This document shows positions 8,905-34,069 of a stretch of 34,395 nucleotides of DNA, piece after piece. The stretch's first letter is position 1, and each line of letters begins with the position of its first letter. The notes beneath the pieces are model-generated. The model was not told the origin of the DNA. It made no database searches and worked only from the letters and a program-made list of their open reading frames with translations. Source of the DNA: a virus; the IMG/VR virus record IMGVR_UViG_3300032516_000094, positions 1 to 34,395 of that record, one strand, 5' to 3'. The position numbers and the translations under genes are program-made.

Positions 8905-11900
8905 TCAGGCGACCCTCAGTTGGTGCGTGTCGAACATTTCTTGGATGTACGGCCCGAGGGTCTGCGCGAACTCGCGCGCGCCCTGTTGCCCGAAGTACGT
9001 CACGCCTCCGACGAAGGAGACGTTGTTGTAGAAGTGCATGGTGATGGGCTGGTTGCCCTGCGACACCGTGAGGCTGACCGACGACGCGCCCGCCGTGCCT
9101 TGGATCGCCTGTTGTTGCGCAGTCATGCCCCCGACTTGTCGATCGCGTTCATCCTGTGCGATCGACGCGCGCTCCGTTCGTGCGAGTCCGGCAAGTGCGA
9201 TCGACGCCGCCCCGCCCATCGCCGCAGCCTCGGCAGCCGCCGCCGCGCCCGCCAGTGCGGACGGGTCGTGGAAGATCAGTGCGCGCGCCAGTCCTTCGAG
9301 GGCAAGCTCGGCGTTGACGATCGCGCGCGCCTTCAATTCCCCCGACGCCGCCTCGAGGGCCGCAGCGATCGCCTCCTTGGCGTTGTTCTGTGTCAGGAAC
9401 TTGGCGACCGCGTATCGTTTTTCCTCGCTCAGCATCAACTCTTTCGCCTGCTTTTTGATGAAGTCGAACGCCACCTTCGGGCCGTGCGACATCTGCGCGG
9501 TCCACGACTTCGCCTGCGCCAACGAGTCGATATGCGCCTGTTTCTCCTTCGCGCTCATATCGTCCCACGCCTTGCCGTGCAGGCCCTTGAACTCGTCGAG
9601 CAGGGCGACCCGGTGAAAGAACGTCGCCGTCTCCATGTCCCGTTGGTAATCGGCCACGCGCCGCGCGTCGGCCTCGATCTCAGCGGCGGCCTTCGCGTCC
9701 GCACCACTCAGGCCCCCGGCGTTTTCGTTGCGCACGGTCGCCGCCTTGACCAAGTCGTTGCGATCGGCCTTGGTGCGCAAGGCGTCCTCAAGCTCTCGCT
9801 TCAGTTTTTGCGCGTCGATCGACGTTTCCGCGAGGGCCGCTAGTCGCTTGCGCAGGTGGGCGATGTACTGGTCGGTCGTCTCGCCGTACAGGTCGCGCTC
9901 GAAGCGCGCGTCGTCCACGAGGGAAGCTGCATGGTCCGCAGCCGCCTTCGCGTCGCCCGCGGCCTTGAGCTTGTCCCGTTCGCTCTGCGTGGCGGCTGCG
10001 GTCCTGCGTTCGAACATACCCGACTCGTAGACCGCGTCGTTCGCCGCCAATTCCTTTTCGCGAAAGTCTCGAAGCTCTTGCAGCATCTGCGTGCGGGCCG
10101 CTCCCGTGCTCGTGCGCATGATCATCAGCCGACGATCGGCAACGTCGGCCTCGATCGCGGCCTCCTTGTCCGCGCGAAGTTGTCCCGAGGCCACAAGGTT
10201 GCCGTACACCTCGCGCGCGTACAGGTCGAACAACTCTACCTTCGCCAACCCTTCGGCCCCGGTTGCATCCACGCGCAGTTTGATTTGCTCCAACACCACG
10301 CGGGTCGCTTCGGTGGCGTCCTTCTCCATCGCCGTCTGCGCCTCGCGCGCGACTTTGACGCGTTCGTTGATCAACGCGCGTTCGTCCTTCGTCGTCGGAT
10401 CGTCCGGGGCCGCCGACGGCTTCGGGCCGAATACGCCGTCCCCCGCGTCGATCTTGCCGAGAGCGACGCCCACCTTGTCGATCGCGTCTTGGGCAATCTT
10501 CGCTTGGCGCGTGAGGGACGCGAGTCGATTGTCCGCCGTCTGCGCCGAGGTGGCCTGCGACGCACCCATCGACGCGGTGGAGCTCGCGTTGAAGTCGGCG
10601 GCATCCTGCAACAACGCCAACCGCTTCTCCGTCAACGCATGCAGACTGGCGACGAGGTCGCTGCGGGACGTCGAGTCCACGTCGAACTCGATCTTAAACG
10701 GCTTCATGGTGTTGGCGTCGAGGGAGTCCAAGGCGACGTTCAGCGCAGTCACCGCGATGATCGCCCAACCGACTGGACCGAGAGCGGTGTTGACCGCCTG
10801 CCCGAACGACGACACACCCGCCGTCAACGCCGGGAACAACCGCACGAGGCTGCCGCCTTGGAACGCGACAATGCGCAGGGCGTACGCGATGCCCCCGGTC
10901 GCCGCGATCGAGGCAGCGAGGCTGGTGAACGCCACACCGAGCAACGCCGCGCCCGCGATCGGACCCACGAACCGCAACAGGTCGAGGACGGGCGGCACGG
11001 CGCGGATCATGTAGGACAGGAACTGCCCACCGGCGCGCACAGCACCACCGATCGCCTGCGACCACGCCGACAAGGAACCGTCGTCGCGCATCCGCTTCAG
11101 TTGCGTGATCACCTCGTCCACCACGAACGTCAACCCTTCGCCCCAACCCGCCTTGTAGATGTCCTCGCGGAACTGATCGAAGCGTTCGGAGATTCCCGTG
11201 AGCTTACTTTCCGTCTCGCGGGCGAACTTCTCGGTGCCCCCACGCACCTGTGCGTCGAGGTCGGCGAGGGCTTCCCGCGCGAGCATCCGCAACGCCTGCG
11301 GGGACTTGCGCATCCCGCCCTCGATCTCCTGTTGCGCTTTGAGTACGGAACTCGTCGCTGCGGGAACCAAGTCGAGGAAGCCGCGCAGGTTTCCACGCGC
11401 CACCTGCGACATGCGCGAGGCCACGTCCTCCATGCTCATGCCGTACGTGGTCGCCGCGTCGGACACGGTCTTGAGGGCCTGATCGGTGAGCAACCCGACG
11501 CGTTGAAGGTGTGCGGCGGCGTTGACGACCTCGGCCTCGGGGATGTTGTACTCCATGACGAAGTGCTTAAACTTCGCCATCGCCGCCGATGCCGCTTCGG
11601 GCGACTTGGTCATAACTTCGAACTGCCTTTGCCACCGCTCGGCCTCGAAGCCCTCTTTGTTGACCGCCTCCATGCCCTCGCGGACGTTCTCAAGCAGTTG
11701 AAGTACTTGTTCCATGGCCGCACTCGCGGCGGTGTACGCGGTGGCGAACGCGGTGACGCTCGACGTGGCCATGAGGGTCTTGCCGTGCAGGCCGTCGAGG
11801 GCAGCGGCGGTCTTCGCATTGGCCGCCGCGCTTTGCTGTGCGGCTGCGGCCTGCTTCGTTTGAATCTGAATCAACGTCTCGGACATGCGAACGAGGTCTT

Positions 11901-11958
11901 GCTGGCCCTTGACGATCGTCTCGACCGTGAAGATCAACTTCTCCTGTGACGTGGCCAT
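8905..11958 (-). CDS. Tape measure protein
   Basis: 1017 residues; ATG with GAGG six bases upstream, overlapping nothing. It fixes tail length and is ejected with the DNA. Features: an N-terminal helical region rich in Gln/Ala (LIQIQTKQAAAAQQSAAA); long Lys/Glu/Ala helices throughout; a hydrophobic stretch about 325-430 (VGPIAGAALLGVAFTSLAAS, GPVGWAIIAVTALNVAL) likely to enter the membrane; a second Ala-rich hydrophobic stretch near 930-970; and a short beta C-terminus (MHFYNNVSFVGGVTYFGQQ). At the often-quoted ~1.5 angstrom per residue this predicts a tail near 150 nm. No lysozyme or peptidase motif is visible. Confidence 0.9.
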   Translation of the reverse strand: MATSQEKLIFTVETIVKGQQDLVRMSETLIQIQTKQAAAAQQSAAANAKTAAALDGLHGKTLMATSSVTAFATAYTAASAAMEQVLQLLENVREGMEAVNKEGFEAERWQRQFEVMTKSPEAASAAMAKFKHFVMEYNIPEAEVVNAAAHLQRVGLLTDQALKTVSDAATTYGMSMEDVASRMSQVARGNLRGFLDLVPAATSSVLKAQQEIEGGMRKSPQALRMLAREALADLDAQVRGGTEKFARETESKLTGISERFDQFREDIYKAGWGEGLTFVVDEVITQLKRMRDDGSLSAWSQAIGGAVRAGGQFLSYMIRAVPPVLDLLRFVGPIAGAALLGVAFTSLAASIAATGGIAYALRIVAFQGGSLVRLFPALTAGVSSFGQAVNTALGPVGWAIIAVTALNVALDSLDANTMKPFKIEFDVDSTSRSDLVASLHALTEKRLALLQDAADFNASSTASMGASQATSAQTADNRLASLTRQAKIAQDAIDKVGVALGKIDAGDGVFGPKPSAAPDDPTTKDERALINERVKVAREAQTAMEKDATEATRVVLEQIKLRVDATGAEGLAKVELFDLYAREVYGNLVASGQLRADKEAAIEADVADRRLMIMRTSTGAARTQMLQELRDFREKELAANDAVYESGMFERRTAAATQSERDKLKAAGDAKAAADHAASLVDDARFERDLYGETTDQYIAHLRKRLAALAETSIDAQKLKRELEDALRTKADRNDLVKAATVRNENAGGLSGADAKAAAEIEADARRVADYQRDMETATFFHRVALLDEFKGLHGKAWDDMSAKEKQAHIDSLAQAKSWTAQMSHGPKVAFDFIKKQAKELMLSEEKRYAVAKFLTQNNAKEAIAAALEAASGELKARAIVNAELALEGLARALIFHDPSALAGAAAAAEAAAMGGAASIALAGLARTERASIAQDERDRQVGGMTAQQQAIQGTAGASSVSLTVSQGNQPITMHFYNNVSFVGGVTYFGQQGAREFAQTLGPYIQEMFDTHQLRVA

Positions 11959-11961
11959 GCG

Positions 11962-12474
11962 TTACCTCTTTCCCGCCGCCTGTTGCTGCTTGAGGTTCCG
12001 TTCCTCGATCCCGTTCCGCGCGAAGCGGATCTCCGCGAACGCTTGCACGTGCCCGTACGGTTGATCCAACCAGCCGCCCCCGTTGGGCGTGCCCCCGAAC
12101 TGTTCGATCAGACCCTCAAGGCCGATCAGGTCGTACGCCTCGCGCACACCCGAAAGCCACGGTGACGTGCACAACCCCGCGAAGCATACCCCCATTTCTT
12201 CCACTCGTTGCATGAGCGACAGTCGCTGCCAGTCATGCAGGTCCGTGCTCAGGTGCGCCACCACTTCATCAGCGGACAGGATCACCCGCCGTCGTTCATC
12301 CTCCGACCCCATGGGACCGACGCGTGCGAACACGTAGGGAGATCGTGAAGCGCACGCGTCCTCGTTGCCGTGTCGGCCCCGTCGCCTTGCCTCGTCGCAG
12401 TCCACCTCGGTCACGACACCGTTGCTGCGGCACGCCGAGGCGAACGCTCCCCACTCCACGAGCAGGGCTAGGAG
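11962..12474 (-). CDS. Tail assembly chaperone, gpT-type extension made by -1 frameshift
   Basis: 170 residues read after the shift at 12474-12480, fused to the first 128 of the short form, giving ~298 residues. It starts LLALLVEWGAFASACRSNG and ends NLKQQQAAGKR. CRSNGVVTEVDCDEAR and VGPMGSEDERRRVILSADEVV are followed by helices. A GTG at 12459 is in frame, but it has no ribosome binding site. In lambda the G-T fusion bridges the tape measure and the tube subunit. The gene ends 3 bases before the tape-measure ATG. Confidence 0.8.
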   Translation of the reverse strand, partial: LLALLVEWGAFASACRSNGVVTEVDCDEARRRGRHGNEDACASRSPYVFARVGPMGSEDERRRVILSADEVVAHLSTDLHDWQRLSLMQRVEEMGVCFAGLCTSPWLSGVREAYDLIGLEGLIEQFGGTPNGGGWLDQPYGHVQAFAEIRFARNGIEERNLKQQQAAGKR

Positions 12475-27832: not shown

Positions 27833-29485
27833 CTACTTGTACAGCAGGTTGATGATGATCTCGCCCGTCGCGGGCGCGCCCACGTCCGAATCGAGGATGC
27901 CGGTGGTGATCGCGTACCCGATCCCCGTGGCGAACGCGATGCCGTTGGTGAACTCGACGTTCGCCCCGGCGCCTGCCGTGTTACCGGGAATGGCGATGGT
28001 CATTACGGGAGTGTCGGTCCCCACCGTCGGGGCCGTCGCCTTGTTGTAGAGCTTCAGGTAGCGCACTGCGGCGTTGATGTTCGAGATGGTCCAGCCGAAC
28101 ACCTGCCCCGCCGATCCCTTGGCACTCGTGGCGTGCGTCGTCCCGGTACTGAGCAGGCGACTGATGAGTAACCCGCCCGTAGTGAGGGGCACGATGCCCG
28201 TCTGTCCCGTCGAGTCCGAGGCGATCGTCACTCGCTGAACACCTGTGCCCGAGGCCCCGTTGCCCATCGTGGGGGCGACGCCGTTGATCTTCGTTACCTC
28301 GGCGCTCACCACGTCCGTCGCCGTCAACGCACGGATGGTCTGCGGGTTGATGGCTGCGGCCCCGTGGTACAACTGCACGTCGAGGGCGTTGTTGTTCGCT
28401 CCCTCTGCGGTCGAAGTCACGTCGGCTGCGGTGGTCGTACCCTTCGCGCCGCCTCGCGCGATCGCCTTGGCGGTGCCGCCCGTGAGCGTGGCGTCTGCCG
28501 CCGCGCCCGTGGGCAGGGGCAGCGAGGCCGCCGACACCGCAAGCGTGCCGGTGCCCGCGTTCGCCGTCACCGTGCCCGACACCGTGACGGACCCATCAAC
28601 CGTGATGGAGTTGCCACCGTCCTGAATGTTCACGGCGGCAGCCCCGGCAGCGTTGTTGATCGTGACGTCCCCGATGTCCACACCCGGTTGCGTCTGCAAG
28701 GCCGAGGTTGCCGCCCCGGTGGGAAGCGGCAGGGCCGCAGCCGACACCGCGAGCGTCCCGGTCCCTGCGTTCGCCGTGACCGTACCTGAGACGGGCTGAG
28801 TGACCGCAGAGCCGTCCACCTTCACCGCGCCTGCCGCCGACACGGTGGCACGCTGGCCTCGTGTCGTGGCGTCCTCGATCACGTTTACAACGGCCCGCTT
28901 CGAGTCGATGCGGGCGGCGGCGGCGTCGTTTTCGGTGAGGGCCGTGCCCGCCACTTCGTCGAAGATGTAGCCCGCAGGCTGCACCTTGGTCGTGCCGTCA
29001 GTGAAGCCCGCGTTGTCGGCCACGGCCAACCCGCCGAGGGTCGCCTCGGTCGCTGCGCCCGTCGGCAGTGGGAGGGACGCGGCAGAGACGGCCAGCGTGC
29101 CCGTGCCTGCGTTCGCTGTGACGGTGCCGCTGACGGTCACGGTGCCCGACACGCCGACCGTACCATCCACCGTCAGGGAGTTGCCGCCGTCCTGCACGTT
29201 GACCGCCGCCGCGCCCGCCGCGTTGTTGATGGTCACGTCACCGATGTCCACGCCGGGCTGCGTTTGCAACGCGGACGTCGCCGCGCCTGTCGGCAGGGCC
29301 GAGCGCGTCACGTCCACGTCGAGCCCGTTGGCGGCGTCGGCGAGGGCAAGGTCGGTGGCGGCTGCGCCTGCGATGCGCACCCGCTGCCGCAGCACGGTGT
29401 TCGCGCCGACGGTCAGGGTGTCGTTGTCCACCTTCTTGCCGGTGTAGGTGGCGTCGTCTCGGAGTTTGAGGATCTCGTCAGCCAT
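27833..29485 (-). CDS. Repeat-containing fibre-like structural protein
   Basis: 550 residues from ATG 29485, with AGGAG upstream; the open frame extends to 29641 but that part overlaps folE. The protein is rich in Ala, Gly, Thr and Val, with almost no Cys or Trp. Residues 66-110 and 256-300 are near-identical copies (ALQTQPGVDIGDVTINNA...). A second unit, TVTANAGTGTLAVSAASLPL, occurs at ~120, 234 and 304. The last ~190 residues look like a beta-sandwich domain (VFGWTISNINAAVRYLKLYN, TMTIAIPGN-like strands). Such repeated beta-strand architecture is common in phage fibres and appendages, either on the tail or the head. No enzymatic motif is seen. The function is inferred from composition and from the following structural genes. 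Confidence 0.6.
   Translation of the reverse strand: MADEILKLRDDATYTGKKVDNDTLTVGANTVLRQRVRIAGAAATDLALADAANGLDVDVTRSALPTGAATSALQTQPGVDIGDVTINNAAGAAAVNVQDGGNSLTVDGTVGVSGTVTVSGTVTANAGTGTLAVSAASLPLPTGAATEATLGGLAVADNAGFTDGTTKVQPAGYIFDEVAGTALTENDAAAARIDSKRAVVNVIEDATTRGQRATVSAAGAVKVDGSAVTQPVSGTVTANAGTGTLAVSAAALPLPTGAATSALQTQPGVDIGDVTINNAAGAAAVNIQDGGNSITVDGSVTVSGTVTANAGTGTLAVSAASLPLPTGAAADATLTGGTAKAIARGGAKGTTTAADVTSTAEGANNNALDVQLYHGAAAINPQTIRALTATDVVSAEVTKINGVAPTMGNGASGTGVQRVTIASDSTGQTGIVPLTTGGLLISRLLSTGTTHATSAKGSAGQVFGWTISNINAAVRYLKLYNKATAPTVGTDTPVMTIAIPGNTAGAGANVEFTNGIAFATGIGYAITTGILDSDVGAPATGEIIINLLYK
28586..28720 (-). repeat. Internal repeat unit, copy 2 (45 codons)
   Basis: This codes residues 256-300 of the fibre-like protein. 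It differs from copy 1 (29156-29290) at only a few residues (VNV to VNI, SLT to SIT, and the end), but the DNA differs at many third codon positions. The duplication is therefore old and kept by selection on the protein. Confidence 0.75.
29156..29290 (-). repeat. Internal repeat unit, copy 1 (45 codons)
   Basis: This codes residues 66-110 of the fibre-like protein, the partner of 28586-28720. A shorter unit (27 codons, GTVTANAGTGTLAVSAA...) also occurs three times in the same gene, at about 29048-29128, 28706-28786 and 28496-28576. Confidence 0.75.
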
Positions 29486-29505
29486 GAGGTCAGGCTCCTG
29501 TCGGG

Positions 29506-30063
29506 CTAGCGGAAGCCCTCTGTGCGGTTCTGAACAAGCGACATGAACTCGGCACGGAGCGTGGCGTCGTCGCGGAAGCGGCCCCGCATCTCGCTCGTGG
29601 TCATAAGCGCGGGCGTCCTGACGCCGCGCATAGTAGCGCACAAGTGCTCGCCAGCGCCAACCACGGCCACGTTCTCGCCCACCCTCGACAACAAGTCGTC
29701 CGCGATCTGCGCCACGAGGCGTTCCTGCATCTGCAACTGACGGGCGTACTTGTGGGCGATGCGGGCGAACTTCGACAGCCCGAGCACGCGTTCACCCGAG
29801 AGGTAGCCCATGGCGAGGTCGCAGGAGAAGGGCAGCAGGTGGTGCTCGCACAGGGACCACACGCGGATGCCGCTGACGACGATCAACTGATCCACCTTGT
29901 CCGAGGCGAAGGTCGTACCGAGGCGATCCTGCTCTCCATCAAGGAACTCGGCCCAAAAGCGTGCGACGCGCGCAGGCGTGTCCGCGATCGACGGGTCGTC
30001 CGTCTCGTAGCCGCACGCGCGCAGCAGGAGGCCCACGGCCACGGCCACGGCGGGTTGATTCAC
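29506..30063 (-). CDS. folE: GTP cyclohydrolase I FolE
   Basis: 185 residues from GTG 30063, just after the queE stop. The frame is open further upstream to 30135, but that would overlap queE, and the extra residues look unlike GCH-I. It converts GTP to dihydroneopterin triphosphate, the first step of 7-deazaguanine synthesis. VWSLCEHHLLPF gives zinc ligands C72 and H75; GEHLCATMRGVR gives H140 and C142. LGLSKFARIAHKYARQLQMQERL is the conserved core helix. A phage copy would raise precursor supply so that preQ0 synthesis does not depend on the host folate pathway. It is the last of five contiguous modification genes; structural genes follow 20 bases later. Confidence 0.95.
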   Translation of the reverse strand: MNQPAVAVAVGLLLRACGYETDDPSIADTPARVARFWAEFLDGEQDRLGTTFASDKVDQLIVVSGIRVWSLCEHHLLPFSCDLAMGYLSGERVLGLSKFARIAHKYARQLQMQERLVAQIADDLLSRVGENVAVVGAGEHLCATMRGVRTPALMTTSEMRGRFRDDATLRAEFMSLVQNRTEGFR

Positions 30064-30076
30064 CTGTCCACTACGC

Positions 30077-30784
30077 CTATCGGCCACGGTCGGAGCCCCA
30101 CAACGCGATATGCAGGCGCGGTGACACGGCCACACCGTGCATCAGCGCGGTCGCGACGACGTTGAGTGCGCTGCCGAGCCACGCCGTGTGCGTGCGCCCT
30201 TCGGGCAGGATGAAGATGCTCGAGCGGGGGAGCTTGTACACCGTGGCGAAGATCATCGCCTCCTCCACGTCCTCGGGCAGCTTGCAGACGAACTTCCACG
30301 CCACCTTGGACGCGCCCATGTCGCGGAACGCCTTGATCGCCTCGGGCCGCAGGGAGAACTTCGCGTCGTTGCCCGACAGCGAGAGCTTCGGGCTCACCAC
30401 GTACAACGACACGGCCACGTCGGGCGCGGGTGCGGTCGTGCCCGCAGTCTCCACGTCGATCGACCACCCCTCCTCGCGTAGTGTGCGCGCGAGTGCGGAC
30501 CAGCGGTCCTGCTGAAGCATCGGCTCGCCGCCCGTGATCACGAGGCGGCGGACGAGCCCCGCCTTGCGGTTGATCGCGTCGAGCACTTCTTCCGCGGGCA
30601 TGGCGTGACGCTCCTGCTCGCGATCGAACCTCTGCCAGTCCCACGAGTACGGCGTGTCGCAGAAGCGGCAGGCGAGGTTGCACCCCGCCAGCCGCAGGAA
30701 CACGGCAGGCTGCCCGGTCATGGGCCCCTCGCCCTGCACGGTCGGGCCGAAGATTTCGTTCACGTAGAGCACGGCGTCAAGCAT
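30077..30784 (-). CDS. queE: 7-carboxy-7-deazaguanine synthase QueE (radical SAM)
   Basis: 235 residues. This radical SAM enzyme rearranges 6-carboxytetrahydropterin to 7-carboxy-7-deazaguanine. The iron-sulfur cluster motif is GCNLACRFCDT (C35, C39, C42), and TGGEPML (84-90) is the SAM-binding glycine-rich strand. The N-terminal EIFGPTVQGEG and the following FLRLAGC are typical of QueE. The ATG lies inside the last codons of queD, so the two are coupled. The stop lies 13 bases before the preferred folE start. Confidence 0.95.
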   Translation of the reverse strand: MLDAVLYVNEIFGPTVQGEGPMTGQPAVFLRLAGCNLACRFCDTPYSWDWQRFDREQERHAMPAEEVLDAINRKAGLVRRLVITGGEPMLQQDRWSALARTLREEGWSIDVETAGTTAPAPDVAVSLYVVSPKLSLSGNDAKFSLRPEAIKAFRDMGASKVAWKFVCKLPEDVEEAMIFATVYKLPRSSIFILPEGRTHTAWLGSALNVVATALMHGVAVSPRLHIALWGSDRGR

Positions 30785-31151
30785 CGGGGCTCCACGAATA
30801 GCGCGCGGTGGTCTTGGGCGTCTCGCTGACTTCGACCCACGTCACGCTCGTGTAGCGCGTGGCCACGTGGCGGTAGATCAGCATGGCCATGACTTCGGCG
30901 GTGGTCTGCTTGCCCTTGAACATGGGCAGGTCGTTCAGGTTGCGATGGTCCATCGTCTCGTTCAGCCACAGATTGATCGGAGACAGGTCGCCGTAGTCGC
31001 GCACCCACCCTTCGGCGGTGAGGCCCGCCGCCGTGAACGCCACGGTGACGCGGTAGTTGTGCCCGTGCAGTCGCGCGCATTGATGCTCGGGCGGCAGGCC
31101 GTCGAGTTGATGCGCTGCGGAGAACTCGAACGTCTTGGTGATGGTGAACAA
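30777..31151 (-). CDS. queD: 6-carboxy-5,6,7,8-tetrahydropterin synthase QueD
   Basis: 124 residues, normal for QueD. It converts 7,8-dihydroneopterin triphosphate, the FolE product, to 6-carboxytetrahydropterin. The zinc ligands are visible as AAHQL (H14) and LHGHNY (H29, H31), with the catalytic cysteine at C25 in HQCARLHGH. DHRNLND and VEVSETP are further family motifs. The start is TTG at 31151, supported by a GAGG site about 8 bases upstream inside the end of queC, only one base after the queC stop. The end overlaps queE by 8 bases. Confidence 0.93.
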   Translation of the reverse strand: MFTITKTFEFSAAHQLDGLPPEHQCARLHGHNYRVTVAFTAAGLTAEGWVRDYGDLSPINLWLNETMDHRNLNDLPMFKGKQTTAEVMAMLIYRHVATRYTSVTWVEVSETPKTTARYSWSPDA

Positions 31152-31152
31152 G

Positions 31153-31812
31153 TCACGCCTCGTAGGTGGAGGGGTCGATCACTTGCGCGAGCGCGAACGC
31201 TTCGCGCCGCTCGGTGCACGTACCGCACTTGCCACAATGTTCCTCGCGCCCCGCGTAGCACGAGTACGTCAGGTGCAGCGGTACCCCAAGCCGAACTCCC
31301 ATCAGGGCGATGCTCGCCTTGGTGAAGTCCGTGAACGGTGCCACGAGACGCACCTTGTGCCAGTCGGCGAGGTACAGCGCGCGCTCGAACGCGGACATGA
31401 ACTCCGGTCGGCAGTCGGGGTAGATGGCGTGATCGCCCGCGTGCGCGGCGTAGGCGATCCAATCGGCCTTCACGCTGATCGCCCACGCACCAGCGATGGC
31501 CAGCATGAGCATGTTGCGGTTCGGCACCACGGTCGCCTTCATCGACTCCTCGGCGTAGTGCCCGTGCGGCAACGGAACGTCGTCGCTCGTCAACGCTGAC
31601 CCCGCCAGCAGCGGCTTCAACGACGACAGGTCGGCCACGCGATGCTCGACGCCGTAGTGTGCCGCGATCAGTCGCGCCGCATCGAGTTCCCGCACGTGCC
31701 GTTGCCCGTAGTCAATCGACAGCGTCCGGCAGTCGGTCCCTCCGCGCAGCAGATGCCCGAGCAGCACGGTGCTGTCCATCCCGCCCGACAACAAAACAAC
31801 CGCCGCTCCCAT
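31153..31812 (-). CDS. queC: 7-cyano-7-deazaguanine (preQ0) synthase QueC
   Basis: 219 residues, the usual QueC size. It converts 7-carboxy-7-deazaguanine to preQ0 with ATP and ammonia in the cytoplasm. The N-terminus carries the PP-loop ATP motif SGGMDST (9-15). LSIDYGQRH and ATVVPNRNMLML are family signatures. The C-terminal zinc site is four cysteines in SCYAGREEHCGKCGTC (C185, C193, C196, C199). There is no fused amidotransferase (GAT) domain, so the expected end product is preQ0 and not the dG+ (archaeosine-type) base made by Gat-QueC phages. The ATG overlaps the dpdA stop as ATGA, indicating translational coupling. Confidence 0.95.
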   Translation of the reverse strand: MGAAVVLLSGGMDSTVLLGHLLRGGTDCRTLSIDYGQRHVRELDAARLIAAHYGVEHRVADLSSLKPLLAGSALTSDDVPLPHGHYAEESMKATVVPNRNMLMLAIAGAWAISVKADWIAYAAHAGDHAIYPDCRPEFMSAFERALYLADWHKVRLVAPFTDFTKASIALMGVRLGVPLHLTYSCYAGREEHCGKCGTCTERREAFALAQVIDPSTYEA

Positions 31813-32630
31813 CAGTTTTTCCTTTCGCGGGCTTTCAGCGCCCCGTTGTTTTCACCCGGGTTGTTCCCGTTGCACGACAACCGGACTGAGGGTGCGATTT
31901 CTCTCCCGCTGCCGATGGTGGCCAGCCGTACGTGTGGTCCGTCCGCGTCAAGGAGGGCCATCTCTTTCGGCCACCGTCGCCGCGCCTGCTGCTCGAGGTC
32001 AAGGTACCAGTCAACCTCAGCGCGCATGTTCTGCCTTGTCCCCCGCCACGACAGCCGCGTGTTGCCGTACGCTTTCCATTGACCGAAGCACGCCGGTCCC
32101 ATCTCCCACGACGAGGCGTCGGTGCTGTGGAACGGTAGGCCGAGCACACCCGCCGCGCTGCCGAACCCGAACCCGTGAATCTTCTTCGGCCACACGCGCG
32201 TGAAGCACTGAGCCGCCCACGCGAGCTTGGCCTTCTCGCGCTTACGCGCCACCCCGCCGAGAGCGATCTTCGGGTAGTCGCGGGCCAGTTGCTTGAGCAC
32301 GTCAACGGGCTCGCCGAAGTGATAGCACGGGATCGCCGGGACGCCTGCGGCCCAGAGCGCCTCCGTATTCTTCAACCCGGCGCGCCAGTTTCCAATCACG
32401 TCGAGCGCGAACACCTCGGTCAACAGCGGGTCGGTCGCCAGAAGGTGCTTCGCCGTCTCCGTGTAGGCCTCAAGCTCGATCACCTTGCCCTTCATGTAGG
32501 CGGTGAACGCCCCCGAGTCCAGAGCCCAATCCCGCATCGCGTACATGCCCCTCACGCGCATGCGCTGGAAGGGCTTGAGGTATACGTACGAGCACAACAG
32601 CGCGGGCAGGTGCTCGGGGTCACTCGCCAT
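31812..32630 (-). CDS. dpdA: DpdA-like DNA guanine transglycosylase (7-deazaguanine insertion)
   Basis: 272 residues from ATG 32630, chosen for its GGGAG site 9 bases upstream; a TTG at 32657 is a weaker alternative. The motifs follow the tRNA-guanine transglycosylase TIM barrel in order: ALDSGAF (D38, equivalent to the TGT general acid/base Asp), EVFALDVIG (D77, base recognition), IALGGVA (124-128), IHGFGFGS (H152) and HSTDASSWE (D171, position of the TGT nucleophile). DpdA proteins exchange guanine in DNA for a 7-deazaguanine such as preQ0. No CxCxxC zinc cluster typical of tRNA TGTs is visible in the C-terminal third, which fits a phage DpdA and not a host tRNA enzyme. The stop overlaps queC (ATGA), and the four preQ0 synthesis genes follow directly. 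The base specificity and sequence context of modification cannot be read from sequence. Confidence 0.85.
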   Translation of the reverse strand: MASDPEHLPALLCSYVYLKPFQRMRVRGMYAMRDWALDSGAFTAYMKGKVIELEAYTETAKHLLATDPLLTEVFALDVIGNWRAGLKNTEALWAAGVPAIPCYHFGEPVDVLKQLARDYPKIALGGVARKREKAKLAWAAQCFTRVWPKKIHGFGFGSAAGVLGLPFHSTDASSWEMGPACFGQWKAYGNTRLSWRGTRQNMRAEVDWYLDLEQQARRRWPKEMALLDADGPHVRLATIGSGREIAPSVRLSCNGNNPGENNGALKARERKN

Positions 32631-33516
32631 CGGGGCTCCCGTGGCCGAGCACGGCAACGATCCACGCCACCAGCGGCAGGTCGGTGCCGGTGCGCTCGTG
32701 CGCCGCGTTCAGCGTCGTCCACTCCTCCTCGTTGAACGTCAGGTGGTGCAGGTGGACTCCGGGTTGGTCGTCGAGTTGTGCCATCGGGGGAGCCACCCAA
32801 TCGGCGTTGAGCAGCGGTGCCAGTTCGTCGTCGCTCCACCCGAGGCGGTGCAGGTTCTCGCCCGCCGCGTTCATGCGCTGCAACTCCTTCGACAACGCCT
32901 CGTAATCCCACCGCGCAAGCTCGGCGGTGCGGTTGTCGTAGAGCGCGAGACGGGTCTTTTGTTCGGGCGTCAGGTTCGTCCGGCGCACGGCGATGATCTC
33001 GTTGCCGTCAGCCTCGACCACGCGCACGCGTTCGATGCCCGCGTTGCCTGCGGCCTCAATCGTCGCGTTGCCCGCGAGGACGACACCGTCCTCGTCGATC
33101 ACGATGCTGCGCGCCGCGCCAACGTCCTTGAGGGCTTCCTCCAACGTGCCGACGTTCGCTGGCGTGTGCTCGCGCACGTTGTGCGGGTCGGGCGTCAGGT
33201 CTCGTAGGTGCGTGATCTCGCGGCGCGCGGTCGCCCCCGTGGCAGGGGTGGGGGTGGGCGTTTGCCGGGCGGGGCGGGTGGGGCGGGTCGCCGGGGGCGG
33301 TGCCAAGCCCCCCGCAACCGCCCGAGACGCCCCCACGCCCCGGATTTGACCCACTCCGGGGGCCTGTGGGGCGGTTCCCGCCCTACGGGGTTGCCCCGGG
33401 GTGGGGGTGGCGGGTGGGGCGGGAACGCGGGGCTTGGGCTTTGAACCCCGTACGGGCGACGTACGGCCCCCTGTGGTCCCCGTGGTACGCGGCGGCGTGG
33501 TGCGCTTACCTGCCAC
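32620..33516 (-). CDS. ParB-like nuclease-domain protein with long Pro/Thr-rich N-terminus
   Basis: 298 residues from a GTG start that overlaps the DUF1064 gene by 11 bases. Residues 1-98 are low complexity, rich in Pro, Thr, Ala and Gly, and probably disordered. Residues ~99-205 match the ParB N-terminal domain: ITHLRDLTPDPHNVREHTP, then DEDGVVLAGNATIEAAG (compare the family's LAGNxRLEAA motif), then LTPEQKTRLALYDNR. Phage proteins of this kind sit next to terminases, methylases and modification genes. Some ParB/Srx-fold proteins bind or cut DNA and some have nucleotide-dependent activities. The exact job here is unknown. Its stop overlaps the dpdA start, so it is probably translated with the modification cassette and could guide or regulate it. 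A later start that removes the disordered tail is possible. Confidence 0.7.
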   Translation of the reverse strand: MAGKRTTPPRTTGTTGGRTSPVRGSKPKPRVPAPPATPTPGQPRRAGTAPQAPGVGQIRGVGASRAVAGGLAPPPATRPTRPARQTPTPTPATGATARREITHLRDLTPDPHNVREHTPANVGTLEEALKDVGAARSIVIDEDGVVLAGNATIEAAGNAGIERVRVVEADGNEIIAVRRTNLTPEQKTRLALYDNRTAELARWDYEALSKELQRMNAAGENLHRLGWSDDELAPLLNADWVAPPMAQLDDQPGVHLHHLTFNEEEWTTLNAAHERTGTDLPLVAWIVAVLGHGSPDGE

Positions 33517-34069
33517 GGCGCACCGCCTTCACGCGCCGCCACCGCTCGGTGCTGCCGCTGATCCTGATGTCGATGCCGTACGCCTCGCGCATCCACCGTT
33601 GCTTGCGCAGGAAGTCGCGCGTGATCAGCCCGTTCTTGAAGTCTTCCACGACGTGCCTCCTTGACTCGGTTTCGGTGTACGTGAAGTCGGCGATGTACAC
33701 GTCGATCAACACGCCTCCGGTGAACACGACCCGAGCGCCATCCAGCCGCAACTCGAACCGTACTTGATACTGCAAGTCCTCGATCGCCCCGCCGCGCTGC
33801 ATCGCCGCCAACAGGACGCCGCGAACGGCCTCGCCCTTCGACCCGTACGCGCGCAGGTCGCCGCGCACGTCTGGCGCGGCCACCTTGCGCACGCCGTAGC
33901 GCGAGCGGTGCCGCAGCCCGGGACATTGAGGCGACAGTCGTGTGGCGGTGCATCCGGCCTTGGCGCAGGGACCGCACAGGGCGGCGGTGCCGCGACCTTG
34001 ATGCTCGCGGAAGGTACCGGCAGGACGTGAGTGCCCGGACGGGCAGACGCAGCGCGGTCGCGGTGACAT
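33506..34069 (-). CDS. DUF1064-family nuclease-like protein with N-terminal cysteine cluster
   Basis: 187 residues. Residues ~57-175 follow the phage DUF1064 pattern, a PD-(D/E)XK-like fold: RYGV at the start, a conserved Glu in SKGEA (E80), YIAD (D128) on a strand, then VVEDFK (D143, K145) as the D/ExK element, and a closing REAYGIDIRI. DUF1064 proteins are usually described as putative endonucleases or resolvases in phage replication and recombination regions; the substrate is unknown. Residues 7-49 add a cysteine cluster (CVCPSGH, LCGPCAKAGC), probably a zinc ribbon. The start is ATG with only a weak G-rich site upstream. It lies just after the terminator, so a promoter probably sits in 34070-34173. 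The end overlaps the next gene by 11 bases. Confidence 0.65.
   Translation of the reverse strand: MSPRPRCVCPSGHSRPAGTFREHQGRGTAALCGPCAKAGCTATRLSPQCPGLRHRSRYGVRKVAAPDVRGDLRAYGSKGEAVRGVLLAAMQRGGAIEDLQYQVRFELRLDGARVVFTGGVLIDVYIADFTYTETESRRHVVEDFKNGLITRDFLRKQRWMREAYGIDIRISGSTERWRRVKAVRRGR

Follow-up and report, generated by a model that had tools for sequence, protein, structure and literature searches.

A putative six-gene phage operon for 7-deazaguanine DNA modification, with a ParB-like protein as the proposed partner of DpdA

The virus record IMGVR_UViG_3300032516_000094 of IMG/VR, which is classed as a linear fragment and was analysed over its full 34,395 bases (hereafter the window), carries on its minus strand a cluster of six genes, parB-like-dpdA-queC-queD-queE-folE. 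We read this cluster as a phage DNA-modification operon that would yield 2'-deoxy-7-cyano-7-deazaguanosine (dPreQ0), with the ParB-like protein serving as the dedicated partner of the transglycosylase DpdA, and assign this reading a probability of about 0.72. In the proposed mechanism, FolE, QueD, QueE and QueC would convert GTP into free 7-cyano-7-deazaguanine (preQ0), and DpdA, an enzyme of the tRNA-guanine transglycosylase (TGT) fold, would excise guanine via an Asp nucleophile, probably D171, and insert preQ0 into the phage DNA, and the resulting dPreQ0 would protect this DNA from many restriction enzymes. The product of the parB-like gene, translated immediately ahead of DpdA, would bind DNA and/or nucleotide and recruit DpdA, a role modelled on the ParB-like ATPase DpdB of bacterial dpd islands, and the likeliest parts to make this contact are its C-terminal domain and the tails of DpdA, which bear a [VI]RLA motif. 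An earlier note on this sequence had described the genes from dpdA to folE as a complete five-gene cassette. These five genes are indeed intact, contiguous and closely packed, but the conserved unit includes a sixth, the parB-like gene at 33516-32620, which the note overlooked together with the [VI]RLA tails. The kind of cassette is already known, but this example is set apart as a variant by the domain of its putative ParB partner, by the motif in the DpdA tails and by its place in an uncultured clade. The features concerned, all on the minus strand, are as follows:

32620..33516, minus strand: parB-like gene, 298 residues
32623..32820, minus strand: C-terminal domain of the ParB-like protein, starting APLLNADWVAPP
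31812..32630, minus strand: dpdA, DNA guanine transglycosylase, 272 residues, ATG at 32630
31911..31940, minus strand: first DpdA tail motif copy, GPHVRLATIG, an exact [VI]RLA
31866..31895, minus strand: second DpdA tail motif copy, APSVRLSCNG, a near copy with S for A
31153..31812, minus strand: queC, preQ0 synthase, 219 residues, unfused
30777..31151, minus strand: queD, 6-carboxytetrahydropterin synthase, 124 residues, TTG start
30077..30784, minus strand: queE, 7-carboxy-7-deazaguanine synthase, 235 residues, 8-nt overlap with queD
29506..30063, minus strand: folE, GTP cyclohydrolase I, 185 residues from GTG 30063, probably its start; frame open from 30135

The preQ0 pathway genes, DpdA and the predicted base

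The family matches of the five cassette genes from dpdA to folE are beyond chance. QueC matches PF06508 (e-value: 5e-63) and scores above the cut-off of TIGR00364, QueD matches PF01242 (e-value: 6e-31) and, slightly below the cut-off, TIGR03367 (e-value: 4e-23), QueE matches phrog_2076 (e-value: 6e-53), the radical S-adenosylmethionine (SAM) family PF04055 and, below the cut-off, TIGR03365 (e-value: 1e-29), and FolE matches PF01227 (e-value: 1e-46) and phrog_2197 (e-value: 2e-47). All of the motifs named in the earlier note for these four proteins and for DpdA are present in the sequence. QueE carries CNLACRFC, QueD C-ARLHGH and FolE CEHH...C, and the QueC motifs SGGMDS, YGQRHVRE, VPNRN and YPDC, together with four Cys, make up the canonical QueC signature, published for PF06508 cluster 1 as SGGxDS, YxQxHxxE, VPxRN, YPDC and four Zn-binding Cys (PMC13329287). 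The Cys are spaced C-x7-C-x2-C-x2-C in the window, the first pair being C-x8 in the published signature (PMC13329287).

A protein with this signature is not of the QatC type, and preQ0 synthesis is its likely activity. The signature also bears on the possibility that the cassette serves not DNA but host tRNA queuosine or protein deazaguanylation, the latter being the reaction of QueC-family proteins in type IV cyclic-oligonucleotide-based anti-phage signalling systems (CBASS) and in Qat. QueC-family proteins have been repurposed in this manner (PMC13329287), and que-bearing phages without DpdA may, according to published work, boost tRNA queuosine. However, the window QueC has the full preQ0-synthase motif set and misses the QatC set, the cassette also encodes FolE, QueD and QueE, the CAjan homologue of DpdA is proven for DNA, and no gene recognised as a CD-NTase (cGAS/DncV-like nucleotidyltransferase) adjoins the cassette. 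A tRNA or protein-modification role is rejected on the QueC motifs and the cassette content, and we regard it as highly improbable.

The 272-residue DpdA protein matches phrog_887, annotated as 'queuine tRNA-ribosyltransferase', in a profile search (e-value: 2e-26) and shares 28% amino acid identity with the genetically proven DpdA of CAjan (tblastn; e-value: 1e-14). It matches no Pfam or NCBIfam family. By sequence it thus scores to DpdA and to no other family, and the better score to an unrelated TIM-barrel family that the earlier note had named as a refutation was not seen. Residues D38 (in DSGA), D77 (in LDVIG), H104, H152 and D171 (in S-x-D), equivalent to positions 47, 86, 113, 161 and 180 of the 281-residue open reading frame (ORF), are invariant in 67 aligned DpdA relatives, and the CAjan DpdA has the same conserved catalytic residues. 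By analogy with TGT, we take D38 and D171 to be the acid/base and the nucleophile. The protein is modelled with confidence as a TIM barrel (predicted local distance difference test, pLDDT: 85), and thus has both the fold and the TGT-like pair of Asp and conserved His residues that characterize the phage DpdA family. Two observations speak against the assignment. Full-length similarity to the Escherichia coli TGT is insignificant (hhalign probability: 1.9%), with the DSG motif alone aligning, and the Foldseek search against the PDB was unspecific, recovering generic TIM barrels only (best e-value: 4e-3; template modelling score: ~0.4). No DpdA was found among the sequences of solved structures. 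Phage DpdAs are separate from TGTs in published networks. It is accordingly from sequence, synteny and active-site residues that we assign the protein to DpdA.

Within the record, the gene content equals that of group 2 of Hutinet 2019, namely DpdA with FolE, QueD, QueE and QueC and without an amidotransferase (PMC6884629). For the group 2 phages CAjan and Rosebush, dPreQ0 accounts for about 32% and about 28% of G, respectively, and DpdA-dependent restriction resistance has been measured, while deletion of the CAjan dpdA abolishes dPreQ0 and leaves the mutant DNA fully digestible (PMC6884629). The best prediction from gene content is that the DNA of this phage would likewise contain dPreQ0 and partially resist restriction. 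This supports the expectation of the earlier note, whose description of QueC as unfused is also borne out.

No match to QueF, DpdC (DUF6884) or YhhQ, and no amidotransferase, was found within the 34-kb record; this is a linear fragment, so that absent genes may lie outside it and another end product is possible. The DNA would then be modified, but the final base would be 2'-deoxy-7-amido-7-deazaguanosine (dADG), 2'-deoxy-7-aminomethyl-7-deazaguanosine (dPreQ1) or 2'-deoxyarchaeosine (dG+), made by a converting enzyme (DpdC-like, QueF-like, an amidotransferase or other) encoded beyond the fragment. The presence of the DpdC domain on one relative contig, and of SAM methyltransferase or glycosyltransferase genes in the cassettes of relatives lacking queC, which suggests that end products vary in the clade, favours such an outcome. 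Nevertheless, in the relatives examined any additional modifying genes are located within the cassette, and neither the window cassette nor the rest of the 34 kb holds a converting gene, which renders a different base unlikely.

Variation in these genes is seen among the relatives themselves. Ten have no detectable queC. A SAM methyltransferase gene (PF13489) occupies the queC position in the relative loci L011 (1192-2001) and L050 (6762-7568), while in L017 a glycosyltransferase gene (11272-12297) lies between queD and queE. The bases made by such queC-less relatives could be 7-deazaguanines in carboxy-, methylated or glycosylated form. In the L003 contig (G001), DUF6884 is encoded within the cassette at 38576-38953 (e-value: 1e-18), which suggests dADG as the base of that phage. 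Weak Pfam matches to QueF in the relatives were rejected, as those with a checkable position fall in folE and represent a T-fold cross-hit.

The ParB-like protein and its linkage to dpdA

The ParB-like protein matches phrog_620 (e-value: 5e-30) and, in a profile search, Spo0J/ParB structures (e-value: 2e-14). Its sequence comprises a basic, disordered N-terminal stretch of ~95 residues, a core at residues ~100-232 and a C-terminal domain at residues ~233-298. The core is modelled by AlphaFold with pLDDT >90 and its top Foldseek matches are to ParB in complex with cytidine diphosphate (ParB-CDP; e-value: 1e-4), and by sequence and model alike it is assigned the ParB/sulfiredoxin (ParB-CTPase) fold.

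Among 57 distinct relatives with a DpdA profile score ≥230 and sufficiently long upstream sequence, the ParB-like gene is located directly upstream of dpdA in 54 and directly downstream in two more. The ParB-dpdA junction is the most conserved of the cassette, being found in 46 of the 47 window-clade relatives with all six genes, above any que junction, and it is kept even where the que genes have been reordered. The loci were gathered with DpdA as the query, and the linkage is thus no retrieval bias. Furthermore, the dpdA start codon (ATG 32630) lies inside the 3′ end of the parB-like gene and overlaps its stop codon, suggesting translational coupling.

The C-terminal domain is likewise associated with dpdA. 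A profile of its ~65 residues, which begin APLLNADWVAPP, matches 63 of 65 dpdA-linked ParBs and none of 56 unlinked ParBs, the latter set being partly redundant. The window protein was recovered when it was itself left out of the profile (e-value: 4e-7), and in half-set tests 22-24 of 26 held-out members were recovered with zero unlinked matches. The simplest reading of these sequences is that a common ParB core has been fused to a tail that would serve DpdA.

Several features weigh against a dedicated partnership. Phages of the CAjan type modify their DNA although no ParB gene neighbours their dpdA. The window core is closest (57-71% identity over the best-matching stretch) to the ParB domains of contigs lacking dpdA, which are mostly ParB-methyltransferase fusions. 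The P-motif of the window protein reads GNAT, with Thr152 where the nucleoside triphosphate (NTP)-binding Arg is expected; this position is Arg in 29/53 relatives and Thr, as in the window, in 19/53. Mutation of the Arg abolished NTP binding in the tested ParB folds (PMC12704722). A Pfam scan of 53 ParB-like members detected ParB_N in 24 and DndB in none. The ParB-like protein was considered as an ortholog of DpdB and rejected for want of a DndB match; a ParB gene, ORF1 of the mycobacteriophage CRB2, has previously been suggested as a DpdB homolog (PMC6392294). An alignment-wide search with ParB A2 was unproductive, conservation being too low.

The alternative is that the ParB-like gene serves partition or regulation, or is typical of the terminase-proximal region, and merely adjoins dpdA without being related to it. 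ParB-like genes are common in phages, many as methyltransferase fusions, the window core is similar to the ParB domains encoded on contigs that have no dpdA, and phages in which dpdA adjoins a sliding clamp gene have no ParB-like gene. Chance adjacency is, however, difficult to reconcile with a linkage that survives reshuffling of the que genes, with a C-terminal domain limited to dpdA-linked ParBs and with the start/stop overlap, and we consider it improbable. A dedicated partnership between the ParB-like protein and DpdA is therefore the reading that we retain.

The [VI]RLA tails of DpdA and the ParB or clamp arrangements

In a tree of 106 DpdAs, the window falls within a clade of 72 rows (Shimodaira-Hasegawa-like approximate likelihood-ratio test: 100) with a stem of 1.01 changes per column. 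This clade consists of uncultivated viral contigs and one short contig of a Chloroflexi metagenome-assembled genome (MAG), while all cultured-phage DpdAs of the tree fall outside it. At least 471 relatives were confirmed, this count covering the first 600 pattern matches, and no isolate at ≥40% identity was found among the matches listed. A tblastn search against 50,697 phage records returned no match at ≥60% identity, the matches listed being ≤36% identical.

Most DpdAs of this clade carry a short motif, typically reading P-[TS]-[VI]-R-L-A, in the tails that flank the barrel on either side. Exact [VI]RLA occurs 60 times in 4,641 tail residues of the relatives, against 0.44 expected and a maximum of four in 1,000 shuffles, and is present in 40 of 71 clade members as compared to one of 34 other DpdAs. 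Up to six copies per protein are observed when near copies are included (L015), while the C-terminal tail of the window DpdA holds two, the first exact and the second a near copy (VRLS). The motif is encoded with every one of the six Arg codons and every Leu codon, and synonymous changes occur throughout, which indicates that it is conserved at the protein level and rules out a DNA-level cause such as a ParB binding site within dpdA. Among the first 27 loci, two copies were seen in no ORF apart from dpdA. The sole structural hint is that the second window copy is modelled, with low confidence, as a strand. Docking is our best guess as to what these tails serve.

Further peculiarities of dpdA were observed among the relatives. 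In L105 (500-530), a CCGT-type tetranucleotide repeat in the region encoding the N-terminal tail alters the reading frame from one [VI]RLA copy to another; this could be either phase variation or an assembly error, in a MAG contig at very low coverage. An Arg/Glu tract (RERERER) is present in the N-terminal tail of one subgroup (L006, L007, L009 and L014). Two or more dpdA genes per locus, mostly in tandem, are found in L003, L023, L034, L050, L057, L082, L093, L101 and L170, and Microbacterium phage Megan also has two (gp2 and gp3).

Across the 106 loci, dpdA neighbours a ParB-like gene in 75, a sliding clamp gene in 17, both in none and neither in 14, several of the latter lying at contig ends. 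By count, the two arrangements are mutually exclusive (Fisher: 1e-11). The clamp-type loci include those of CAjan, 9g, R7M, RHEph06, Me-ZS1, Ssp-JY38, vB_VibM_83AMN and ZHS. As ParB forms a CTP-controlled DNA clamp (PMC12704722), both arrangements may provide DpdA with a ring-like tether. We thus tentatively suggest that phage DpdA is guided by a clamp, either the replicative sliding clamp or a ParB-like one and never both, and that in the uncultured clade the [VI]RLA repeats are docking tags by which DpdA is tethered to its ParB-like partner or to some other factor on the DNA, although as a whole this proposal must be considered doubtful. The DpdA tree needs just two changes to account for the distribution of ParB and clamp, so that there is little independent support for their exclusivity.

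Genomic context and comparison with known systems

The cassette is located upstream of the terminase gene on the same (minus) strand, which also encodes a packaging, head and tail module comprising terminase (phrog_2), portal (phrog_113), major head protein (phrog_1005) and tail tube (PF18906). A terminase-based search for relatives of the window found none. Upstream of the parB-like gene, with an 11-nt overlap, lies a gene (33506-34069) whose product resembles DUF1064/Holliday junction resolvase (phrog_190; e-value: 5e-10). Downstream of folE, at 27833-29509, a repetitive, structural-looking protein with repeated ANAGTGTLAVSAASLPLPTGAA is encoded, which has no family match.

Carrying an altered form of G is an established way for phages to guard their DNA against bacterial enzymes that would cut it. 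We found no explanation of how DpdA chooses its guanines and reaches ~30% of G in phage DNA. A ParB-like partner with its own domain, a peptide tag on DpdA and the ParB-or-clamp alternative supply concrete parts with which this choice can be probed. In the part of the literature that could be searched, we found neither the C-terminal domain nor the tail motif nor the ParB-or-clamp alternative described. The large clade, for which the matches listed include no isolate at ≥40% identity, furthermore represents a diversity of base-exchange enzymes that is still to be explored, and members that replace queC with other enzymes hint at further bases.

Among known systems, the preQ0 cassette of CAjan and Rosebush (PMC6884629) resembles that of the window in combining DpdA with FolE, QueD, QueE and QueC and, as far as the record extends, in lacking an amidotransferase, with dPreQ0 as the predicted base. 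In CAjan, however, dpdA adjoins sliding clamp and DNA polymerase genes, whereas the window dpdA adjoins the ParB-like gene and its product belongs to a separate clade. The gene order of the window, ParB-dpdA-queC-queD-queE-folE with overlapping starts, is shared by the actinophages Sonali and PenguinLover67, while Rinkes and Sour have this order plus one inserted gene, followed in Rinkes by adenylate kinase and terminase genes. The DpdAs of these four actinophages are nevertheless ≤36% identical to that of the window and carry no repeated [VI]RLA; the CAjan, 9g and Sonali proteins lack [VI]RLA tails and that of mycobacteriophage Rinkes has a single match. Unlike the window, the actinophage loci give either a weak match to the C-terminal domain of ParB (Sonali; e-value: 6e-5) or none.

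In bacterial dpd islands, which comprise DpdA, DpdB, DpdC and restriction genes, a TGT-like DpdA works with the ParB-like ATPase DpdB (PMC12839542), which has been connected with the DndB family (PMC11888242). The window shares the pairing of DpdA with a ParB-like protein, but its partner matches ParB_N rather than DndB, and DpdC and restriction genes are lacking. Phage ParB-DNA methyltransferase fusions, with cores 57-71% identical to that of the window, similarly pair ParB with a DNA-modifying enzyme; in the window, by contrast, the ParB-like protein is separate, has another C-terminal domain and is paired with a base-exchange enzyme.

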